From Bacteroidia bacterium (GTDB lineage: Bacteria > Bacteroidota > Bacteroidia > B-17B0 > Aurantibacillaceae), in contig JANWKZ010000229.1 of assembly GCA_025451115.1 (NCBI GenBank), positions 1 through 51,056 on the forward strand: a stretch of 51,056 nucleotides of DNA, in the 5' to 3' direction. This document shows positions 19,499-45,506 of the stretch, piece after piece. Both the position numbers and the translations under genes were made by a program. The notes below the pieces were generated by a model. That model ran no database searches and was not told the origin of the DNA. It worked only from the letters and a program-made list of their open reading frames with translations. Positions within the stretch are counted from its first letter, which is position 1. The number at the start of each line of letters is the position of its first letter.

Positions 19499-22400
19499 AT
19501 GTTTAAGAACCCTGTTCATACCTTCATTTCCTTCTTACTCATTTCATTCGTTGCGGTCTTTAGCTGGTCGTGCGGTTCAAAAACCGGCGCTGGAGCCGAG
19601 GAAGCCGTAGCCATCCCTGATTCTACTGCCGTTGGAACAACCACCTCGCTGGGCGGGTGCAAGCCCATTGTGCTTGAAGGTAAAGTAATAGAAGCAGGCG
19701 CTCCTACTGTTGTAAAAGCAGGAACACCTGAAATGACCGCAGGTTTCAGCAACATACACCCGGTTGGGCAATTAAAAGTTGTGGAAGATGTGAGTGGAAC
19801 AAAACTCAATCCCGACAGCGTTAAACCGCAGGTAATAAAAGCAAATCCAAAAATTGTTCCCTGTCTAACACCAAAAACTACGATAGCTCTTTCGCCTGCC
19901 ATGCGCGAGCAAAATCCTATCGGCTTTAAATTCTTCGATATCGCCCAGGGATTAAGTTCTTCTTATATCAGTTGCATGATGCAGGATGCCAACGGAAACA
20001 TTTGGTTTGGTACCAAAGGCGGCGGCGTTTGTAAATACGATGGAACAGACTTCATGAATTACACCGAGAAACAAGGTTTGCCCAACAACTTTGTAGTATG
20101 TATGGCTGAGGATAAAGACAAGAACCTCTGGTTCGGTACAGATGGCGGCGGCGTTTGTAAATACGATGGAAAAAATTTCACTATTCTAACTGAAAAAGAA
20201 GGTTTAATAAATAATGCCGTATGGGCTATGTTGTGCGACAAGAACAACAACATGTGGTTCGGCTCAGCCGGCGGCGGCGTTTGCAAATTTGACGGGGCCA
20301 ATTTTACAGCTTACAACAAAGATGATGGCTTTGCAAGTAATTACGTGATCAGCCTCGCCGAGGACCGTAAGGGAAATATCTGGATGGGAACCTATGGCGA
20401 TGGCCTCTATAAATTTGATGGAAAAGAATTTACCGGTTATACGGAAGACGATGGGCTGAGCAGCGGCATCATCACTTCGATCATTGAAGACAAGGGTGGG
20501 AACATCTGGATGGGCACCGATGGCGGCGGCGCTTGTCGTTTTAACGGCAATGCTTTTACACATTATACTGAGAACGCGGGTTTAATAAGTAATTCGATCA
20601 ACTCGGTGATAGAAGACAAGACCGGCAACATCTGGTTTGCTACAAACGATAAAGGTGTTTGCAAATACGATGGCAGTAGCTTTATCTGTTTCACAGAATT
20701 TGAAGGTTTGAGCGGCAGCTCTATTCTTTGTTTGCTACAGGATGGGAACGAAGATCTTTGGTTTGGTACAGGCGGGCACGGTGTTACCAAATACGACCGC
20801 AGTTGCTTCACGCATTTTACCAAGAAAGAAGGTTTGAGCAATAACGCGGTTTACAAAACATTTGAAGATCACGATCACAACCTTTGGTTCGGCACAAATG
20901 GCGGCGGGGTTTGTAAATACGCCGACGGAAATTTCTATAACTATACTGCACAACAGGGCTTGAACAATAACCGCATCTGGAGCATATTGGAAGACAGCAA
21001 GAACAACATGTGGTTTTGCACCAACGGCGATGGCGTTTGCCGTTTCGACGGAAAGAGTTTTTACCAGTACACCGAAGAGCAAGGTTTGAGTGGCAACCAG
21101 GTGTATTGCATGCTGGAAGATTGCAGGAACAATTTCTGGTTTGGTACCAACAGCGGCGGTGTTTGCTTTTTTGATGGAAAGAGTTTTACGCATTACACCA
21201 GCGAAGAAGGTTTTGGCAGCGATATCGTTTACTCCATCATGGAAGACACCGATCGTAATATCTGGTTCGGTACGGATGGCGGTGGCGCCATTCGGTTCGA
21301 TGGAAAAACATTTACGGCTTTCACAAAAAAAGAAGGCCTTGCAGGCAATGTGGTATACAGCATTATGCAGGATAACTATAAGAACATCTGGTTTGGGACA
21401 GATGAAGGCGGCGTGAGTAAGTTTGATGGAAAGAAATTCGTAACGTATTCAGAAAAAGAGGGACTAAGCAATAACCACGTGTGGAGTGTTGTTCAGGATA
21501 TGCACAACAATATCTGGTTGGGAACTGAGAGCGGGCTAACCAAGATCACACAAAGAAAAGATCGCAGCGCGCCTGAGTTTACCGTTTATGATCTCAGTGA
21601 TGGATTTTTAGGGAACGACGCTTTGCAAAATTCGGTTTACGAAGACAGCAAGGGTTATATCTGGTGGGGCACAGGAAAAATGCTGACGCGCTACGATCCT
21701 TCGCAGGACGTGCCGGATGATAAAGCACCTATCATGCACTTGAAGAACGTACGCGTGCATTTCGAAGAAATTCCCTGGCGCGATATCAGTGAAGGAAATA
21801 ACAAGGACAGCAAATTTTCGGGCGTAAAGTTCAGCGATGTGAACAAGTGGTACCCCGTACCTGAGAACCTGGAGCTTCCCTATGGCCACAACCACTTAAC
21901 TTTTAATTACGTGGGCATTAACTTTAAGAGTCAGAACAAGATCCTGTATCGTTACATGATGGATGGATTGGAAGATAAATGGACCCCAACCACACCAAAG
22001 ACGGAAGCGGTTTACGGTAACCTGCCCCCCGGCACCTATACACTCAACGTAAAAGCGCTGAACAAGGATGGCGTGTGGAGCAATTCTTTCACTTATGCTT
22101 TTACAATTCGTCCGCCCTGGTGGCAGACCTGGTGGTTCAGGATACTGGCCGCTGTGTTATTTTTGCTGGGTAGTTACACATTCTTCCGTGCCCGCACGGC
22201 CGCGCTGAGAAGAAGGCAAAAAGAACTGGAAGAAACAGTTCTGGAGCGTACTGCCGAGGTAGTTCATCAGAAAGAACTGGTGGAAGAAAAACAAAAAGAA
22301 ATTGTAGACAGTATCAATTACGCAAAAAGGATCCAGTTCAGCATCCTGCCGCCGCAAGATGAAATGAAGGAAGCGCTGGGCGATCACTTTGTGCTTTACA

Positions 22401-23071
22401 AACCTAAGGATATTGTAAGCGGCGACTTCTACTGGATGGTGCAGGTTAAACACAGCGCAACCGAAACTCCTTTGGCGGTAGTTGCCGCGGTTGATTGTAC
22501 GGGTCACGGAGTTCCCGGCGCTTTGATGAGTATTATCAGTAGTTCTTTATTGAGCCAGACCACTAAGAACGCAGACATCAATTCTCCGGCCGACGCGCTT
22601 AATTACCTTAACCAGGAGTTGCCCAAAAACATTAAGGCGCAGCAAAAAGGAGAGATCATTCGCGATGGCATGGACATCACCATGTGCGCTTTTGATTTTG
22701 CTACGCGCAAAATTGAATTCGCCGGTGCTAATAATTCACTGTATGTATTTACAGGAGGCGAGCTGAAAGAAATTAAAGCCGATAAACAGGCCATCAGTGG
22801 TTCTACCGATGATGTAAAGAAGCCTTATACAAATCATTCTGTTCAGCTGAACAAAGGCGATATGGTTTACCTCTTTACGGATGGTTATGCCGACCAGTTT
22901 GGTGGACCGAAAGGCAAAAAATTCAAACACAAACAGCTGGAACAGATCCTGGTTGAAATACACCAAAAACCCATGGCCGAGCAAAGGGCTGTTCTCGATA
23001 AACGCTTTGAAGACTGGCGCGGGACGCTGGAACAAGTAGATGATGTGACTGTTATTGGCGTAAGAGTTTAA
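19499..23071 (+). CDS. Periplasmic two-component-propeller sensor with cytoplasmic SpoIIE/PP2C phosphatase
   Basis: 1190 residues. An N-terminal hydrophobic segment ends 'VFSWSC' (signal or lipoprotein anchor). 14 two-component-regulator propeller repeats follow (about 168-730, 42-residue period, 'NIWFGTdGGGVCKYDG'), enough for two seven-bladed propellers. Then come a Y_Y_Y domain (about 795-870), one transmembrane helix (about 880-898), a coiled coil, the linker 'DSINYAKRIQFSILPP' and a PP2C/SpoIIE phosphatase (about 960-1190: 'DIVSGDFY', 'DCTGHGVPGALMS', 'DGMDITMC', 'FTDGYADQFGG', 'DDVTVIGV'). It should sense a periplasmic ligand and dephosphorylate an anti-sigma-antagonist-type target. Such hybrids, with a phosphatase in place of a kinase, are frequent in Bacteroidota. 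Confidence 0.92.
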   Translation: MFKNPVHTFISFLLISFVAVFSWSCGSKTGAGAEEAVAIPDSTAVGTTTSLGGCKPIVLEGKVIEAGAPTVVKAGTPEMTAGFSNIHPVGQLKVVEDVSGTKLNPDSVKPQVIKANPKIVPCLTPKTTIALSPAMREQNPIGFKFFDIAQGLSSSYISCMMQDANGNIWFGTKGGGVCKYDGTDFMNYTEKQGLPNNFVVCMAEDKDKNLWFGTDGGGVCKYDGKNFTILTEKEGLINNAVWAMLCDKNNNMWFGSAGGGVCKFDGANFTAYNKDDGFASNYVISLAEDRKGNIWMGTYGDGLYKFDGKEFTGYTEDDGLSSGIITSIIEDKGGNIWMGTDGGGACRFNGNAFTHYTENAGLISNSINSVIEDKTGNIWFATNDKGVCKYDGSSFICFTEFEGLSGSSILCLLQDGNEDLWFGTGGHGVTKYDRSCFTHFTKKEGLSNNAVYKTFEDHDHNLWFGTNGGGVCKYADGNFYNYTAQQGLNNNRIWSILEDSKNNMWFCTNGDGVCRFDGKSFYQYTEEQGLSGNQVYCMLEDCRNNFWFGTNSGGVCFFDGKSFTHYTSEEGFGSDIVYSIMEDTDRNIWFGTDGGGAIRFDGKTFTAFTKKEGLAGNVVYSIMQDNYKNIWFGTDEGGVSKFDGKKFVTYSEKEGLSNNHVWSVVQDMHNNIWLGTESGLTKITQRKDRSAPEFTVYDLSDGFLGNDALQNSVYEDSKGYIWWGTGKMLTRYDPSQDVPDDKAPIMHLKNVRVHFEEIPWRDISEGNNKDSKFSGVKFSDVNKWYPVPENLELPYGHNHLTFNYVGINFKSQNKILYRYMMDGLEDKWTPTTPKTEAVYGNLPPGTYTLNVKALNKDGVWSNSFTYAFTIRPPWWQTWWFRILAAVLFLLGSYTFFRARTAALRRRQKELEETVLERTAEVVHQKELVEEKQKEIVDSINYAKRIQFSILPPQDEMKEALGDHFVLYKPKDIVSGDFYWMVQVKHSATETPLAVVAAVDCTGHGVPGALMSIISSSLLSQTTKNADINSPADALNYLNQELPKNIKAQQKGEIIRDGMDITMCAFDFATRKIEFAGANNSLYVFTGGELKEIKADKQAISGSTDDVKKPYTNHSVQLNKGDMVYLFTDGYADQFGGPKGKKFKHKQLEQILVEIHQKPMAEQRAVLDKRFEDWRGTLEQVDDVTVIGVRV
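20000..21690 (+). repeat. Fourteen intragenic 126-bp propeller repeats
   Basis: The IWFGT-type segment recurs 14 times, mostly at 126 bases (42 residues). The last interval is longer because of an insertion before 'IWWGTGK'. Some adjacent copies share long DNA identity (for example the GGCGGCGGCGTTTGTAAATA block near 20028 and 20144), which suggests recent duplication or gene conversion. Confidence 0.9.
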
Positions 23072-29417: not shown

Positions 29418-30797
29418 TCAGGGTTGCACACCGATAACTAAAATATCATCTACCTGTTCAATTCCACCTTTCCATTTCTCGATAAAATTATCTAAGTATG
29501 CCTTCTGGTCTTGCATAGATTGACCCTGGATAGAGAGAAGGGTTTGTTTAAACCTTTTTATCATCAATTTTTTTTCTTCATTCCCACCAAAGGTATCCGC
29601 ATATCCGTCTGTAAAAATATAAAACCTGTCTCCCTGATTTAACTTAATTTCATGTTTCTCAAATGATTGATCGTTACTTGTGAAGCCTCCAATTGCTTTT
29701 TTCGTGGCCTTAATCTCCTCGATCGTTGTTTGCCCATTACGAATGATCCAAATGGGCCGGTTAGCGCCGGCGTATTTTACAATATTTGTTTTTGTGTCTA
29801 TAACGCAAAGGGCTATGTCCATTCCATCTTTACTGGAATTCTTGTCGCCGGATTGGCGCAAAGCGCTCTTTATTCCTTTATTTAACTTCTGTAAAATTTC
29901 GGATAGATCTGTACTTTGTGAAGTAGCATCTTCAAGTTTTTCTGAACAGATCATGCTCATTAGCGCACCCGGAACGCCGTGCCCTGTGCAGTCAGCAGCA
30001 GCAATAAAAATCAAATGGTCGAGCTTACGAAAAAAATAGAAATCTCCACTCACAATATCTTTCGACTTATAGAGAATGAAACTGTTAGGCAGTGCCGATT
30101 GAATTTCGTTTTGACAAGGCAGCATAGCCTGCTGTATCCTCTGTGCGTAATTCAAACTATCGGTAATAGCAGTGTTCCGTTCTTCTATTATTTCTTTCTG
30201 TTTTACGATGGTTTCCTTTGTACGACGTATAGTTTTGGTATGATTCCAAATAGCATAAGTGCCAAGTACAATAGGAATAAATATGGGAAGAACAGTCGAC
30301 TTTTCGGCTCCGGGCTGCACGATCCAATCCCAGGTTAATGCTCCGTTCAATTTTATGTTGAGGAGCACATAAAATAGCGGTAGCCATCCCAGGAAGCAGC
30401 AGAAAAGGACCCTGGCTAAACCTCTTTGAAGCAACGCACTCATTAAAATAAAGAACATCATCTTCGATACGCAAATTCCGTCCAGGCGCTGGGAGTTCAA
30501 CATCATGGTTGCCAGGAAAGTGGTGATCGTAACCACACTAAAGAAATAGTTGATCACATGATCCAGTTTCTTTACGTAACGGATAAGAAATGGCATGGAT
30601 CCCAGCAACAAAATGTCTATCGCGTGTTTGAAGGTGGCTTTATGGAACTCAAGCATAATATCAGTTGAGAGCTGAAGAAAAAAGATCAGAAAAAAGACAA
30701 TGCTGAATTGATAAAGTACAATGGCATTGGCCTGCTCAAAAGCATCGGCTGAATTAAGGAATTTCCCAATAAAATATTTTCTTATTTGTTGTTTCAT
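29418..30797 (-). CDS. Membrane SpoIIE/PP2C phosphatase
   Basis: 459 residues. About six transmembrane helices fill residues 25-190, followed by a short coiled coil ('TKETIVKQKEIIEERN'), the linker 'DSLNYAQRIQQAMLPC' and a PP2C/SpoIIE domain (about 225-459: 'DIVSGDFYFF', 'AADCTGHGVPGALMS', 'DGMDIALC', 'FTDGYADTFGG', 'EQVDDILVIG'). All acidic metal-binding motifs are intact. It should dephosphorylate a STAS-type or other target in response to a membrane signal. Last gene of a three-gene operon with a periplasmic protein and a barrel protein, which presumably supply that signal. Confidence 0.92.
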   Translation of the reverse strand: MKQQIRKYFIGKFLNSADAFEQANAIVLYQFSIVFFLIFFLQLSTDIMLEFHKATFKHAIDILLLGSMPFLIRYVKKLDHVINYFFSVVTITTFLATMMLNSQRLDGICVSKMMFFILMSALLQRGLARVLFCCFLGWLPLFYVLLNIKLNGALTWDWIVQPGAEKSTVLPIFIPIVLGTYAIWNHTKTIRRTKETIVKQKEIIEERNTAITDSLNYAQRIQQAMLPCQNEIQSALPNSFILYKSKDIVSGDFYFFRKLDHLIFIAAADCTGHGVPGALMSMICSEKLEDATSQSTDLSEILQKLNKGIKSALRQSGDKNSSKDGMDIALCVIDTKTNIVKYAGANRPIWIIRNGQTTIEEIKATKKAIGGFTSNDQSFEKHEIKLNQGDRFYIFTDGYADTFGGNEEKKLMIKRFKQTLLSIQGQSMQDQKAYLDNFIEKWKGGIEQVDDILVIGVQP

Positions 30798-36298: not shown

Positions 36299-36358
36299 TT
36301 TCCAATTTTGAAACCTTTTGGTTTTTGTATCGTATAAATATTGTTTTTGCACAAAATT

Positions 36359-36766
36359 ATGTCGCAACAAGCTGAAAATCAAGTGAAAATAACAAAGCAA
36401 AATAACCCGGAAGGTGTGGTAGAACGCATGGTGGTAGGTCTTTGCGAGAAGATGAACATCAAAGAAGAGAAGTTTGGGAACATTTTATTAGCACTTACCG
36501 AGGCTGTTGACAACGCCATTGAGCACGGTAACCAAAACCACCCCGATAAAGCAGTTGAACTTAGCTATAAAGCCTCTTCAGAAGGCGTAACCTTTACCAT
36601 AGCCGACCAGGGTCAGGGTTTCGACCCCAACCACGTATCAGATCCTACACACCCCGAAAGCGTTTCAGAAGAAGGCCGCGGCCTATTCTTAATGAAACAT
36701 CTGGCCGATAAAGTGGCCTTTGAAGAGAACGGCAAAAAAGTAGTGCTGTCCTTCAATCTTAATTAA
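36359..36766 (+). CDS. RsbW/SpoIIAB-like ATP-binding protein (anti-sigma-factor type kinase)
   Basis: 135 residues from the ATG at 36359. A HATPase_c fold with N-box 'ALTEAVDNAIEHGNQ', G1 'IADQGQGFDP' and G2 'EEGRGLFLMKHLAD' motifs. Proteins of this type phosphorylate an STAS-domain antagonist and hold a sigma factor; SpoIIE-type PP2C phosphatases reverse the phosphorylation. Two such phosphatases are encoded in this window (19499, 29418), but no STAS or sigma gene is present, so the pairing is inference. Confidence 0.88.
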   Translation: MSQQAENQVKITKQNNPEGVVERMVVGLCEKMNIKEEKFGNILLALTEAVDNAIEHGNQNHPDKAVELSYKASSEGVTFTIADQGQGFDPNHVSDPTHPESVSEEGRGLFLMKHLADKVAFEENGKKVVLSFNLN

Positions 36767-42037: not shown

Positions 42038-42646
42038 ATGAAGAAGGTTCAGCTCGATATTGTAGGATTAAGTTACAGTCAAACCCAAACCGGTGCTTAT
42101 GCCCTGGTGCTTGGCGAAGTAAGCGGGAAGCGCAGGCTGCCTATCATCATCGGGGCATTTGAGGCGCAGGCCATCGCTATAGAGCTGGAAAAAATGACGC
42201 CCAGCCGTCCGCTCACACACGATCTTTTCAAGACCTTTGCCGAGACCTTTAACGTGAACGTTACCGAGGTGATCATCTACAACCTGGTGGAAGGTATTTT
42301 CTACGCCAAACTGATCTGCAACGATGGCACACAGGATTATGAAATAGACGCTCGTACCAGCGATGCTATTGCTTTGGCTGTACGTTTCGCCTGCCCTGTT
42401 TTCACTTACGAATTTATCCTGTCTACCGCCGGCATCATTTTAGAGGACGACGCTTCTGCCGGTACAGCTTCTGAGACAGAAGCAGCCGAAGAACACGCTA
42501 TTAAAAGCGGCGGAAGCGACGATAACGAGTATCACAACAAAAGCACCGAAGAACTCAAGACCATGCTCCAAACAGCATTGGACGACGAGCAATATGAATT
42601 GGCTTCAAAGATCCGCGACGAGCTGAACAACCGCAAGCAGTCTTAA
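42038..42646 (+). CDS. Bifunctional nuclease (DUF151) with UvrB/UvrC (UVR) motif
   Basis: 202 residues. The DUF151/BFN domain (about 1-130) has 'LPIIIGAFEAQAIAIELEKM', 'PLTHDLFKTFAETF' and 'DARTSDAIALAVRFACPVF'. A C-terminal UVR-like helix pair (about 165-202, 'LKTMLQTALDDEQYELASKI') follows an acidic linker. BFN proteins have DNase/RNase activity in plants; the bacterial role is unclear. Third gene after etfBA; its stop overlaps that of the convergent TPR gene by 4 bases. Confidence 0.9.
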   Translation: MKKVQLDIVGLSYSQTQTGAYALVLGEVSGKRRLPIIIGAFEAQAIAIELEKMTPSRPLTHDLFKTFAETFNVNVTEVIIYNLVEGIFYAKLICNDGTQDYEIDARTSDAIALAVRFACPVFTYEFILSTAGIILEDDASAGTASETEAAEEHAIKSGGSDDNEYHNKSTEELKTMLQTALDDEQYELASKIRDELNNRKQS

Positions 42647-44214
42647 CCCGCAGCCCTTAATCTTTTTAAATGTTTAGCAATGTAACTTTCGCTGGGTATC
42701 AGTGATCGCTGTATCCTCCTGGCGTAGTAAATGCTATCCATAATTTCCTTCTGTTTTTCTTCTACAACAGCCTTTTGCAATAATACCTCCTGGCGTTGTA
42801 TTTCAATGATCTTCCTTTGTTTGTTGGTCACCACAAACCGGTTCACCATAAATAGGGCGAATAGTCCAACCAGGCCCAGTCCGCCGTATAAAACCCTTCG
42901 CTGTGTCTTCTCACTTTTGAATTGAGCCTGTGCGATCTTTTTCTCTTCCCCGGCTTTTACGCTGTCTGCCGCCGCTTTCTTCCCGTATTCAAACTGCATC
43001 TCGCTCCGCAAAATGGAACGCCGGCTTACGTCGTTATCCAGGCTGTCGCGATAAATAATGTTCTTTTCCATGTACTCAAGCGCACGGGTATAGTTCCCTT
43101 TTGCCTTATATATTACGGCCAACTGGGCGTAGGTATCGCGCAAAGTGCCCGTCAGGTTTTCCTTAATTGCGTCAGGTAGATTAGCGAGATTCATCCGAAG
43201 GCATTCATCGTATTCTTTCAGATCGAAATATACGTCGGGTATCAAGGCTCTTGAACTTACAATACCATCACGGCTCCCGGAAGAAGCAAATTCCTTTATA
43301 GATCGATGAAGGACCCATAGTGCCGAATCATGTTTTCCAAGATTGATATACACGTGCCCCAGGCCATTGAGCACAATGCCGCTTCCATAACTATCCATCA
43401 GATCCTCATTCATTGCAAGGCTTTCCCTGTATAGCTTTAATGCCTCTTGTGCCTGACCCATACGCTCGTGGTTGGCAGCTCTGTTGGTAATGACCTGCGC
43501 GCTAAGTATGCCTTGCCCAAGCTCCCTGTACATATCCCCCGCCTTCTTATACTCCTCATTTGACCTGGAGTAATTACCGGTGTTCGAATAAGAGATGCCC
43601 AGGTTATTGTGTGAGTTGGCTATGAGTTGAAGGTCGTTCTCCGCTTCAGCCTTGGCCAGGCTCGCCAGGTGAAACTCTACAGCCTTGTCATAGAACTCCA
43701 TTTTTTGGTATGCATTTCCAATGTTTCCCAGTGCATAGGCCACGCCCAGGTTATCTTTCATTAGAGCGGCCCACGCGGCACTTTTTTTATTCATCTCAAT
43801 AGCCTCCGGAAATTTTCCCAACCGGTCCATAATATTTCCGAGGTTGAGGTAGGCAGACGATATGCCTATCGTGTCGTGGGCTTTTGTGCTCCAGTGTAAA
43901 GCAAGGTCTGTAAAATACCTTGCACTGTCTATCGTAGCATACAATTGATGTATAGCGCCAAGCCTGCGGTAAGCTTCGCCCATTATACGCGCATCGCCGG
44001 CCTTTTTCGAGAGTTGCAGCGCACGTTGGGCAAAAAGCAGGGCTGAATCCGCATTCCGATATAAAAAATTCTTCGCCAGGGCTGAGTTTGCCAATGCCTG
44101 CGCATGTGGGTCGCCGCTGGTACCGCCGGCTACTTTCAATAATGAATCTAAATTATTTTGTGCCGGCAGGATGTGCCAAACGAAAAGACATAGTATGATG
44201 AGTGTCTTCTTCAA
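42643..44214 (-). CDS. TPR/membrane/coiled-coil protein ending in a SpoIIE-type linker (copy 2)
   Basis: 523 residues from a TTG start at 44214 that overlaps the upstream TGA stop (TTGA), i.e. coupled translation. A signal peptide (about 1-19, 'LFVWHILPAQ') precedes about seven TPRs (about 35-375, e.g. 'AYLNLGNIMDRLGKFPEAIE'), one transmembrane helix (about 440-462), a basic coiled coil and the tail 'EEKQKEIMDSIYYARRIQRS' then LIPSESYIAKHLKRLRAAG and stop. The tail is the linker that precedes SpoIIE phosphatase domains in the proteins at 19499 and 29418, but no phosphatase follows. Paralogue of the upstream gene. Confidence 0.85.
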   Translation of the reverse strand: MKKTLIILCLFVWHILPAQNNLDSLLKVAGGTSGDPHAQALANSALAKNFLYRNADSALLFAQRALQLSKKAGDARIMGEAYRRLGAIHQLYATIDSARYFTDLALHWSTKAHDTIGISSAYLNLGNIMDRLGKFPEAIEMNKKSAAWAALMKDNLGVAYALGNIGNAYQKMEFYDKAVEFHLASLAKAEAENDLQLIANSHNNLGISYSNTGNYSRSNEEYKKAGDMYRELGQGILSAQVITNRAANHERMGQAQEALKLYRESLAMNEDLMDSYGSGIVLNGLGHVYINLGKHDSALWVLHRSIKEFASSGSRDGIVSSRALIPDVYFDLKEYDECLRMNLANLPDAIKENLTGTLRDTYAQLAVIYKAKGNYTRALEYMEKNIIYRDSLDNDVSRRSILRSEMQFEYGKKAAADSVKAGEEKKIAQAQFKSEKTQRRVLYGGLGLVGLFALFMVNRFVVTNKQRKIIEIQRQEVLLQKAVVEEKQKEIMDSIYYARRIQRSLIPSESYIAKHLKRLRAAG

Positions 44215-45506
44215 GCGGTTCTTTTCTTCAATTGTTTTTCAATATAGCGCTCGCTGGTAATAAGTGCGCGTTGTATCCTGCGTGCATAATAAATGGAGTC
44301 AAGTATCTCTTTCTGCTTTTCTTCCACAACATGTTTTTGTTGTTCCACTTCCCGCTTTTGCACCTCGATCACTTTCTTTTGTCTATGGGTCACTCTAAAC
44401 CTATTCACCATAAAAACGGCAAAAAGGGCAACCAAAGCAAGTCCACCGTAAAGCGCGTACCGTTGCGTTTGTTCGTGTTGCAGTTGCACCTGTACTACTT
44501 TTTTCTCTTCGGCAGTGCGCACAGAGTCAGCCGTGGCCTTTTTCTCGTATTCGTATTTTAACTGCGACTTGATACTTGCTTTTTTGTTCGACTCGCGGTT
44601 CAGGCTGTCGTGCATCTGGATATAGATCTCGTAATTGACAAGTGCCTCTTTGGCATTCCCCGTTATTTTATAAATGGAATAAAGGATCTTGGCCGAACTG
44701 CGGATCTTGTGTGGTTGGTTCAGTTCACGACTTATCCGCATAGCTTCGAGACCAGCTTCTATGGCCTCTTTTTGTTTCCCGGCACGAATATACACGTGAG
44801 CGAGGTTGGTAAGCGAAGCGGCCATCCCGCTTCTGTCGTGCATTATTTTTCTCAACGGAATGCTTGCCTTGAAATATTTTTCGGCTTCATCGAATTTTCC
44901 GGTGAGATAATAGAATGTGCCGAGGTTATTCAGCGACATCGCTATCCCAAAAGTATCTTTGATCGCATCGCGGATATTTTTACTTGCAGAAAAATATACA
45001 AGTGCAGAGTCATACATTTTTTTGTTCTGGAAAACGTGGGCCATGTTATTCAGCGCATCCGACTCGCCTTGTTTATCCTTTACTGATCGCAGAAGATCCA
45101 GGCCCTGCCGATAATACTTAAATGCGTTATCTACATCGCCCGAGGCTTCATGGATCTGGGCCAGGTCGTTCATGGAAGCCGCCCGCATTTGAGGATCACC
45201 AATAGCTTCAGCTATTTTTAAACTTTGCTCAAAGTAACCAATGGCCCTGGCAAAATCGCCGAAACGATCATAGGCCTGCCCAAGGTTCACAAGTGCCTGT
45301 CCTTTCAGGAGTTGGTAGGAACGGGTAGATTTTCCTTCTAACGTTTTTACTACGGATTCACTGAGATAAATGGATGAATCGGGATTTACATCCAACAGGT
45401 ATATCGCTCTTTGGTTCTGCGCCTTTAATTGTGTGGTATCCTGGGCTTGCACCTTTACGAAAAGGCATACCAGGATGGCGCAAAATATGCAAACCGAATG
45501 TCTCAA
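44211..45506 (-). CDS. TPR/membrane/coiled-coil protein ending in a SpoIIE-type linker (copy 1)
   Basis: 431 residues from a TTG start at 45506 (a TATCTTG element lies 7 bases upstream). Signal peptide about 1-21 ('AILVCLFVKVQAQ'), about six TPRs (about 35-290), one transmembrane helix (about 347-366), a coiled coil and the tail 'EEKQKEILDSIYYARRIQRA' then LITSERYIEKQLKKRTA and stop. It shares the C-terminal 90 residues closely with the downstream gene, the result of tandem duplication. The periplasmic TPRs would bind a partner and the cytoplasmic tail would act as output. Function unknown. Confidence 0.85.
   Translation of the reverse strand: MRHSVCIFCAILVCLFVKVQAQDTTQLKAQNQRAIYLLDVNPDSSIYLSESVVKTLEGKSTRSYQLLKGQALVNLGQAYDRFGDFARAIGYFEQSLKIAEAIGDPQMRAASMNDLAQIHEASGDVDNAFKYYRQGLDLLRSVKDKQGESDALNNMAHVFQNKKMYDSALVYFSASKNIRDAIKDTFGIAMSLNNLGTFYYLTGKFDEAEKYFKASIPLRKIMHDRSGMAASLTNLAHVYIRAGKQKEAIEAGLEAMRISRELNQPHKIRSSAKILYSIYKITGNAKEALVNYEIYIQMHDSLNRESNKKASIKSQLKYEYEKKATADSVRTAEEKKVVQVQLQHEQTQRYALYGGLALVALFAVFMVNRFRVTHRQKKVIEVQKREVEQQKHVVEEKQKEILDSIYYARRIQRALITSERYIEKQLKKRTA

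Follow-up and report, generated by a model that had tools for sequence, protein, structure and literature searches.

Tandem TPR membrane proteins ending in a SpoIIE-type linker are probable receptor subunits of a split sensor phosphatase in Bacteroidia

Why would a membrane sensor carry the linker of a phosphatase and then end where the phosphatase begins? The question is raised by two tandem genes, P0002 and P0001, in a 51,056-nucleotide contig of a Bacteroidia bacterium (JANWKZ010000229.1; this whole stretch is called the window). Both products have a DSxxYAxRIQ coiled-coil linker downstream of a sensor and a transmembrane (TM) segment, and neither has the PPM/SpoIIE domain that a single-chain sensor phosphatase carries on the same polypeptide. 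A linker-less PPM gene is found elsewhere in the same genome. We conclude that P0001 and P0002 probably belong, as receptor subunits, to a sensor phosphatase of SpoIIE/RsbU type that has been split, and that they would bind and activate one shared free catalytic subunit.

RESULTS

Two tandem genes stop shortly after the linker

The two genes and their parts are as follows.

44211 to 45506, minus strand: P0002, 431 amino acids, TTG start; signal peptide, TPR array, one TM helix, cytoplasmic coiled coil and short tail; no phosphatase
42643 to 44214, minus strand: P0001, 523 amino acids, TTG start; tandem paralogue of P0002 with identical architecture
44214 to 44342, minus strand: short-tail module of P0002, QQKHVVEEKQKEILDSIYYARRIQRALITSERYIEKQLKKRTA; profile match of 83.8 bits, class signature
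42646 to 42780, minus strand: short-tail module of P0001, LQKAVVEEKQKEIMDSIYYARRIQRSLIPSESYIAKHLKRLRAAG; profile match of 89.8 bits, class signature
44403 to 44459, minus strand: predicted TM segment of P0002 (residues 350 to 368), from hydropathy
42829 to 42885, minus strand: predicted TM segment of P0001 (residues 444 to 462), from hydropathy
44610 to 45383, minus strand: TPR solenoid of P0002 (residues 42 to 299), from Pfam (TPR_12 and others) and an AlphaFold2 (AF2) model

Each protein has a hydrophobic N-terminus, TPR repeats, and a single predicted TM segment, and the two are 39% identical across 361 amino acids. The TPR solenoid of P0002 is expected to be periplasmic because it is located between the signal peptide and the TM segment. 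Both C-termini read VVEEKQKEI(L/M)DSIYYARRIQR(A/S)L, after which 16 residues follow in P0002, which ends VVEEKQKEILDSIYYARRIQRAL-ITSERYIEKQLKKRTA, and 18 in P0001, which ends VVEEKQKEIMDSIYYARRIQRSL-IPSESYIAKHLKRLRAAG. The first-pass annotation of this DNA had described two such genes at this place and on this strand, ending in a SpoIIE-type linker without a phosphatase; the open reading frames (ORFs) and Pfam agree, with no PF07228 (SpoIIE) match in either protein. It rightly placed the stops shortly after RIQR(A/S)L, although its distance of 17 to 20 residues has to be corrected to the 16 and 18 given here. Its statement that the next gene leaves no room for a phosphatase also holds. The P0002 stop overlaps the TTG start of P0001 by 4 nt, and the P0001 stop overlaps by 4 nt the 3′ end of the convergent gene at 42038 to 42646; therefore, no phosphatase remnant can follow. 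In the AF2 model of P0002 (41 sequences; pLDDT of 87), the TPR solenoid is accompanied by a helix spanning the TM segment and the coil (residues 307 to 415), a break at 416 to 418, and a short helix at 419 to 430, with moderate confidence in the tail (67 to 78). A tandem pair in another genome (G006) was considered as a syntenic counterpart and rejected; the flanking genes are not shared and the identity is 30 to 32%, so these are not clear orthologues.

The short tail defines a large and constrained class

The window's own genome is a 2.75-Mb draft, 74% complete, with 32 SpoIIE domains. A BLAST search of it with the P0002 tail found 95 places. A profile of 45 positions, made from short tails, separated these clearly: 63 places scored at least 69.5 bits, and one more, without a SpoIIE domain, scored 65.5 bits, whereas all 31 phosphatase linkers scored 64.4 bits or less. 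By this count, the genome has about 64 short-tail proteins and 31 SpoIIE phosphatases that bear a linker. The class was defined by a profile score above 67 bits that reaches position 42 to 44 of 45 and is followed by a stop, with no PPM domain downstream; P0001 and P0002 both belong to it. Proteins read from fetched contigs had a bimodal spacing between the D of DSIxYA and the stop, of 27 to 37 residues in 62 sequences and at least 244 in the rest. Tandem clusters of two to five account for about half of the short-tail genes.

The tails can be told from phosphatase linkers column by column. First, the residue before DS is L in 54 of 61 tails and T in 14 of 20 phosphatases. Second, R stands at +7 in 59 of 61 tails, and L at +12 in all 61, where phosphatases mostly have I. 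Third, the tails continue with E at +16, Y at +18 (49/61), K/R at +21 (59/61), L at +23, L at +26 (45/61), and a basic end, and stop at +27 to +37; the phosphatase linkers instead carry P at both +14 and +24, with F at +27, where the PPM domain starts. Finally, hydrophobic positions at −16, −9, −2, +5, +12, +19, and +26 form a heptad pattern that is continuous from near the TM segment to the C-terminus. The tail is conserved at the protein level, because its pairwise amino acid identity is 64% compared to 33% at four-fold synonymous sites, and it is under selection. By alignment columns, the tail is 61% identical and the N-terminal (sensor) part 25%.

These numbers bear on the simplest explanation, that the genes are decaying truncations or assembly artefacts of phosphatase genes, as a missing domain in two neighboring genes might suggest. 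Such an origin is extremely improbable. The tails occur in about 64 copies with consistent end points, the neighboring genes overlap the stops, the synonymous sites are saturated while the residues are conserved, and the class is found in more than 30 other genomes. A pseudogene or frameshift origin was ruled out by the overlapping neighbors and the constraint on these copies. The first-pass annotation had proposed that the linker functions without a fused phosphatase, and doubted this should such tails turn out to be rare, strain-specific, or unconserved. They are none of these, and the proposal is borne out to the extent that the tail is a real, selected module.

The sensors attached to this module vary. 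TPRs were found by Pfam in 54 of 61 short-tail proteins, and the others include 7TMR-DISM-like and other membrane domains; tails on non-TPR sensors are seen at L045:3782-4510, L040:2640-3806, L057:1026-2519, and L054:26-406. Three short-tail TPR proteins (L048:921-2147, L052:4436-5653, and L061:1869-3161) have no predicted TM segment and are probably cytoplasmic. Since it is found on TPR, 7TMR-DISM-like, and other sensors as well as on soluble-looking proteins, the short tail is a portable C-terminal module. One could regard it as a self-contained oligomerization or membrane-anchoring module of TPR scaffolds, its resemblance to the linker reflecting shared ancestry only, and the continuous heptad pattern and the long helix followed by a short basic helix in the AF2 model would fit. 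We consider this very unlikely, given that the three apparently soluble members retain the tail and that the class co-occurs and shares operon-like adjacency with a free phosphatase, as described below.

Two further observations concern the architecture of the class. In the short-tail proteins of this genome, the spacing from the TM segment to DSIxYA has its main cluster at 31 residues and further values near 24, 38, 45, and 52; these heptad steps are as expected for a signaling helix. Successive TPR-TM-tail units are in places fused in frame with no stop between them, for instance at L053:2467-5148 in the window's own genome (a 967-amino-acid frame with two tails), in L100 (1,414 and 1,053 amino acids), in G469:C16 (2,412 amino acids, several tails), and in G462:C14 (2,086 amino acids).

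A free catalytic domain begins where the tails end

The 32nd SpoIIE domain of the genome lies outside the window, at G000:C135:7845-8549 (L038:1346-2053). It is a 235-amino-acid ORF, MEANDSKNFFILYKPKDIVSGDFYY..., with an in-frame stop ahead of it, no linker match, and no sensor, and by Pfam it is a complete PPM domain. Free catalytic genes of this kind start with the pattern M...K(N)FFILYKPKDIVSGDFYY, which is the point where the short tails stop; a full-length relative reads through this point as ...LLTSENYFKKHL-SDFFILYKPKDIVSGDFYW. The AF2 model of a 78%-identical orthologue (from G021) showed a complete PPM fold with an opening strand at residues 6 to 11 (pLDDT of 92.4, pTM of 0.90). The best structural matches were the PP2C domain of SiaA (6k4e; TM-score of 0.82) and SpoIIE (5ucg), and RsbX (3w40) was also among the matches. 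The metal-site aspartate motifs GDFY, D.TGHG, TDG..DQ, and DD are invariant in the PPM alignment.

In a tree of 144 PPM domains, all 36 free ones formed one clade (97/96; 98% of bootstraps) nested within the linker-phosphatases. Its sister group, which is weakly supported, consists of eight full-length proteins, all but one with short-tail-like linkers. This topology fits a single fission event followed by multiplication of the receptors. As a separate observation, most free domains have a short extra stretch, ALSHKTTGSANEKFY, after GDFYYA (A5 columns 22 to 45), which most full-length relatives lack; a similar stretch is present in L138, a member of the sister group, and it is absent from the free domains of G004, G005, and G006.

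Free catalytic genes and short tails occur in the same genomes

Among the first 60 relatives, a free PPM gene (open frame of 232 to 254 amino acids) was found in 14 genomes, each of which had at least two strict tail matches. The sample was extended to 87 genomes of the family, of which 30 had a free PPM gene and one more (G486) had a copy cut at a contig end. Strict tail matches numbered 2 to 81 in these 31 genomes, with a median of 0 in the other 56. Strict matches are insufficient as proof of short tails, since some full-length phosphatases reach the cut-off. Therefore, ambiguous genomes were listed again and the DNA around most strict matches was fetched, and nearly all of the matches in genomes without a free PPM gene turned out on this DNA to be full-length phosphatases. 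One match running into a contig end (G017) was counted as not short, and a few low-scoring matches were classed by open-frame length and profile span.

With these corrections, both elements were present in 31 genomes, tails only in 3, the free gene only in none, and neither in 53. In other words, short tails were found in 31 of 31 genomes with a free PPM gene compared to 3 of 56 without one. Among genomes at least 95% complete, the corresponding counts were 21, 0, 0, and 30. Five genera contain both states, and within them the tail and the free gene are concordant. Two genomes from other families (G051 and G043) also carry both, as sparser cases. Across about 395 genomes of the phylum, no further genome matched at the strict cut-off, a weak negative given that at most 18 candidates were scored per genome.

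The number of short-tail receptors in the relatives ranged from 1 to 83 per genome. Within one genus it ran from 0 to more than 60 (G000, G021, G036, and G026 versus G003, G015, G014, and G020), which suggests that congeneric species gain and lose receptor arrays rapidly.

The gene upstream of the free PPM gene is often a short-tail gene

In 13 of 33 genomes, the free PPM gene directly follows a short-tail gene that is read from the same strand. At most 0.22 such cases are expected from the gene numbers, and the maximum in 200,000 simulations was 4. Four further public contigs have the free gene beside or inside short-tail arrays, namely, L102 (Flavobacteriales H5_BAC5), L119 (Flavobacteriales SJ571), L143 (nzgw125), and L146 (MAG-336).

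Which protein is the partner of the tails?

The first-pass annotation had paired the tails with full-length SpoIIE phosphatases. On this account, the matching coiled coils would hetero-dimerize and tune the activity of the phosphatase, as dominant-negative partners or co-receptors. The DSxxYAxRIQ core is indeed common to tails and phosphatase linkers, both kinds of protein coexist in the genomes where both were counted, and a C-terminally truncated RsbU co-elutes with full-length RsbU as a heterodimer (PMC12143880). The distribution across genomes goes the other way. Five genomes rich in SpoIIE domains (33 to 44) and without a free PPM gene (G012, G019, G032, G018, and G014) had no verified short tails. 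In addition, the class-specific residues (L in place of T before DS, L in place of I at +12, and R at +7) suggest insulation from the phosphatase linkers, and pairing with full-length enzymes leaves the adjacency and co-occurrence of the free gene unexplained. We therefore rate this account as rather unlikely. The partner of the tails is more probably the free subunit, because full-length phosphatases are abundant in genomes without short tails.

Direct contact is not the only way to relate the two genes. The free domain might be a constitutive or feedback phosphatase like RsbX, with the tails acting on some other partner and the two being co-inherited as parts of one network. Linker-less single-domain PPM phosphatases do exist, RsbX itself being among the structural matches, and no short-tail gene adjoins the free gene in the window's own genome. 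We find this quite unlikely, however. The free domain sits within the linker-bearing RsbU-like clade and not in a group of its own, it begins exactly at the end point of the tails, it directly follows tail genes in 13 genomes, and it was never found without tails (0/31).

The split-phosphatase reading has several points to answer. First, three genomes have verified short tails and no detected free PPM gene: G002, which is 58% complete; G488 (C160), 76% complete; and G001 (C512), 93% complete in 720 contigs. Second, the 87 genomes share ancestry, for which the counts were not corrected by a species tree, so that the Fisher value of the co-occurrence table (1.7e-20) overstates independence. Third, full-length phosphatases are present wherever both were counted and short tails occur, and some contact between them and the tails is possible. 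Finally, the adjacency seen elsewhere is missing from the window's own genome. With these points weighed, we hold a split receptor-phosphatase to be the probable explanation.

Related genes in the window

Three other genes in the window serve for comparison.

19499 to 23071, plus strand: full-length comparison protein with a Reg_prop propeller, Y_Y_Y, linker DSINYAKRIQ, and SpoIIE phosphatase
29418 to 30797, minus strand: full-length comparison protein with a membrane sensor, linker DSLNYAQRIQ, and SpoIIE phosphatase
36341 to 36766, plus strand: RsbW-like HATPase_c_2 protein (141 amino acids), between a DUF4175 gene and ybeY; the genome's best RsbW-type match

The first two run from the linker into a SpoIIE domain, as had been noted from the sequence earlier. 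The sensor type of the second recurs joined to a short tail in L045:3782-4510 (28% identity). The RsbW-like protein is a plausible candidate for the antagonist kinase downstream of the phosphatases, as would be expected in a partner-switching (RsbW/RsbV) pathway. One strong HATPase_c_2 match per genome was found in 12 of 12 genomes examined, whether or not the split system is present.

DISCUSSION

In an ordinary chain of this family, a sensor is followed by a TM helix, the coiled-coil linker DSxxYAxRIQxxLLP, and a PPM domain. We propose that here the chain has been severed just before the first PPM strand and that the sensor half has been multiplied, each copy ending in a conserved tail in which a break would separate the coiled coil from a short amphipathic helix of basic character. 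A ligand on the periplasmic TPR or other sensor domain would order or rotate the dimeric coiled coil. The linker of RsbU turns into a coiled coil, which dimerizes and activates the PPM domains through α1 and α2, and linkers pack against α1 of the PPM fold (PMC12143880). By analogy, a pair of tails may dock to the free PPM domain where the covalent linker normally sits, onto the switch helices α1 and α2, and this docking would dimerize and activate the enzyme at the membrane, in trans. The active enzyme might then dephosphorylate a STAS-type anti-sigma-factor antagonist, with an RsbW-like kinase opposing it. On the scale of the genome, we lean toward a hub-and-spoke arrangement in these Bacteroidia, in which up to about 83 TM receptors per genome, most of them with a TPR ectodomain and tandemly amplified, use a common docking tail of 30 residues to compete for a single free SpoIIE-type subunit.

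Bacterial PPM sensor phosphatases have so far been understood as single chains, and no description of a split receptor-phosphatase was found in the open-license papers searched, though the RsbU linker mechanism was. If the arrangement is as proposed, duplication of a receptor gene that carries the 30-residue tail would be enough for a cell to gain a new input, with no new enzyme. That TPR membrane proteins have undergone species-specific tandem expansions in these Bacteroidia would then be accounted for, and dozens of proteins per genome without a recognized output domain would be given a function. The activation of PPM by its linker, which in RsbU has been studied within one molecule, would also become accessible to tests on separately purified parts.

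How does this arrangement compare with known systems? The sensor phosphatases RsbU, RsbP, and SpoIIE likewise have a sensor, a coiled-coil linker ending ..IQ..LLP, and a SpoIIE-family PPM domain, and regulation through the linker is established for RsbU (PMC12143880). Here, in contrast, separate genes encode the linker and the catalytic domain, there are many linker-ending receptors and one free PPM, and activation would be in trans. The RsbT-RsbU pair is similar in that a separate protein contacts the linker region and switches the PPM dimer on; however, RsbT binds the covalent linker of RsbU, whereas here the linker-like segment belongs to a separate receptor. RssB of Escherichia coli and Pseudomonas aeruginosa has a phosphatase-type linker, and E. 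coli RssB has a truncated PPM domain without PPM activity (PMC12143880). RssB, a protease adaptor, nonetheless retains a portion of the PPM domain, whereas the short-tail proteins end ahead of the first PPM strand. In RsbX and other single-domain phosphatases, too, a PPM domain is encoded alone, but the free domain described here falls within the linker-bearing phosphatases in the tree and co-occurs with short-tail receptors. Chemoreceptor-CheA arrays offer an analogy only, without homology, with a kinase in place of a phosphatase, and with no counterpart identified here to their adaptor; in these arrays, one enzyme is shared by many membrane receptors, which feed it by way of their conserved cytoplasmic tail.

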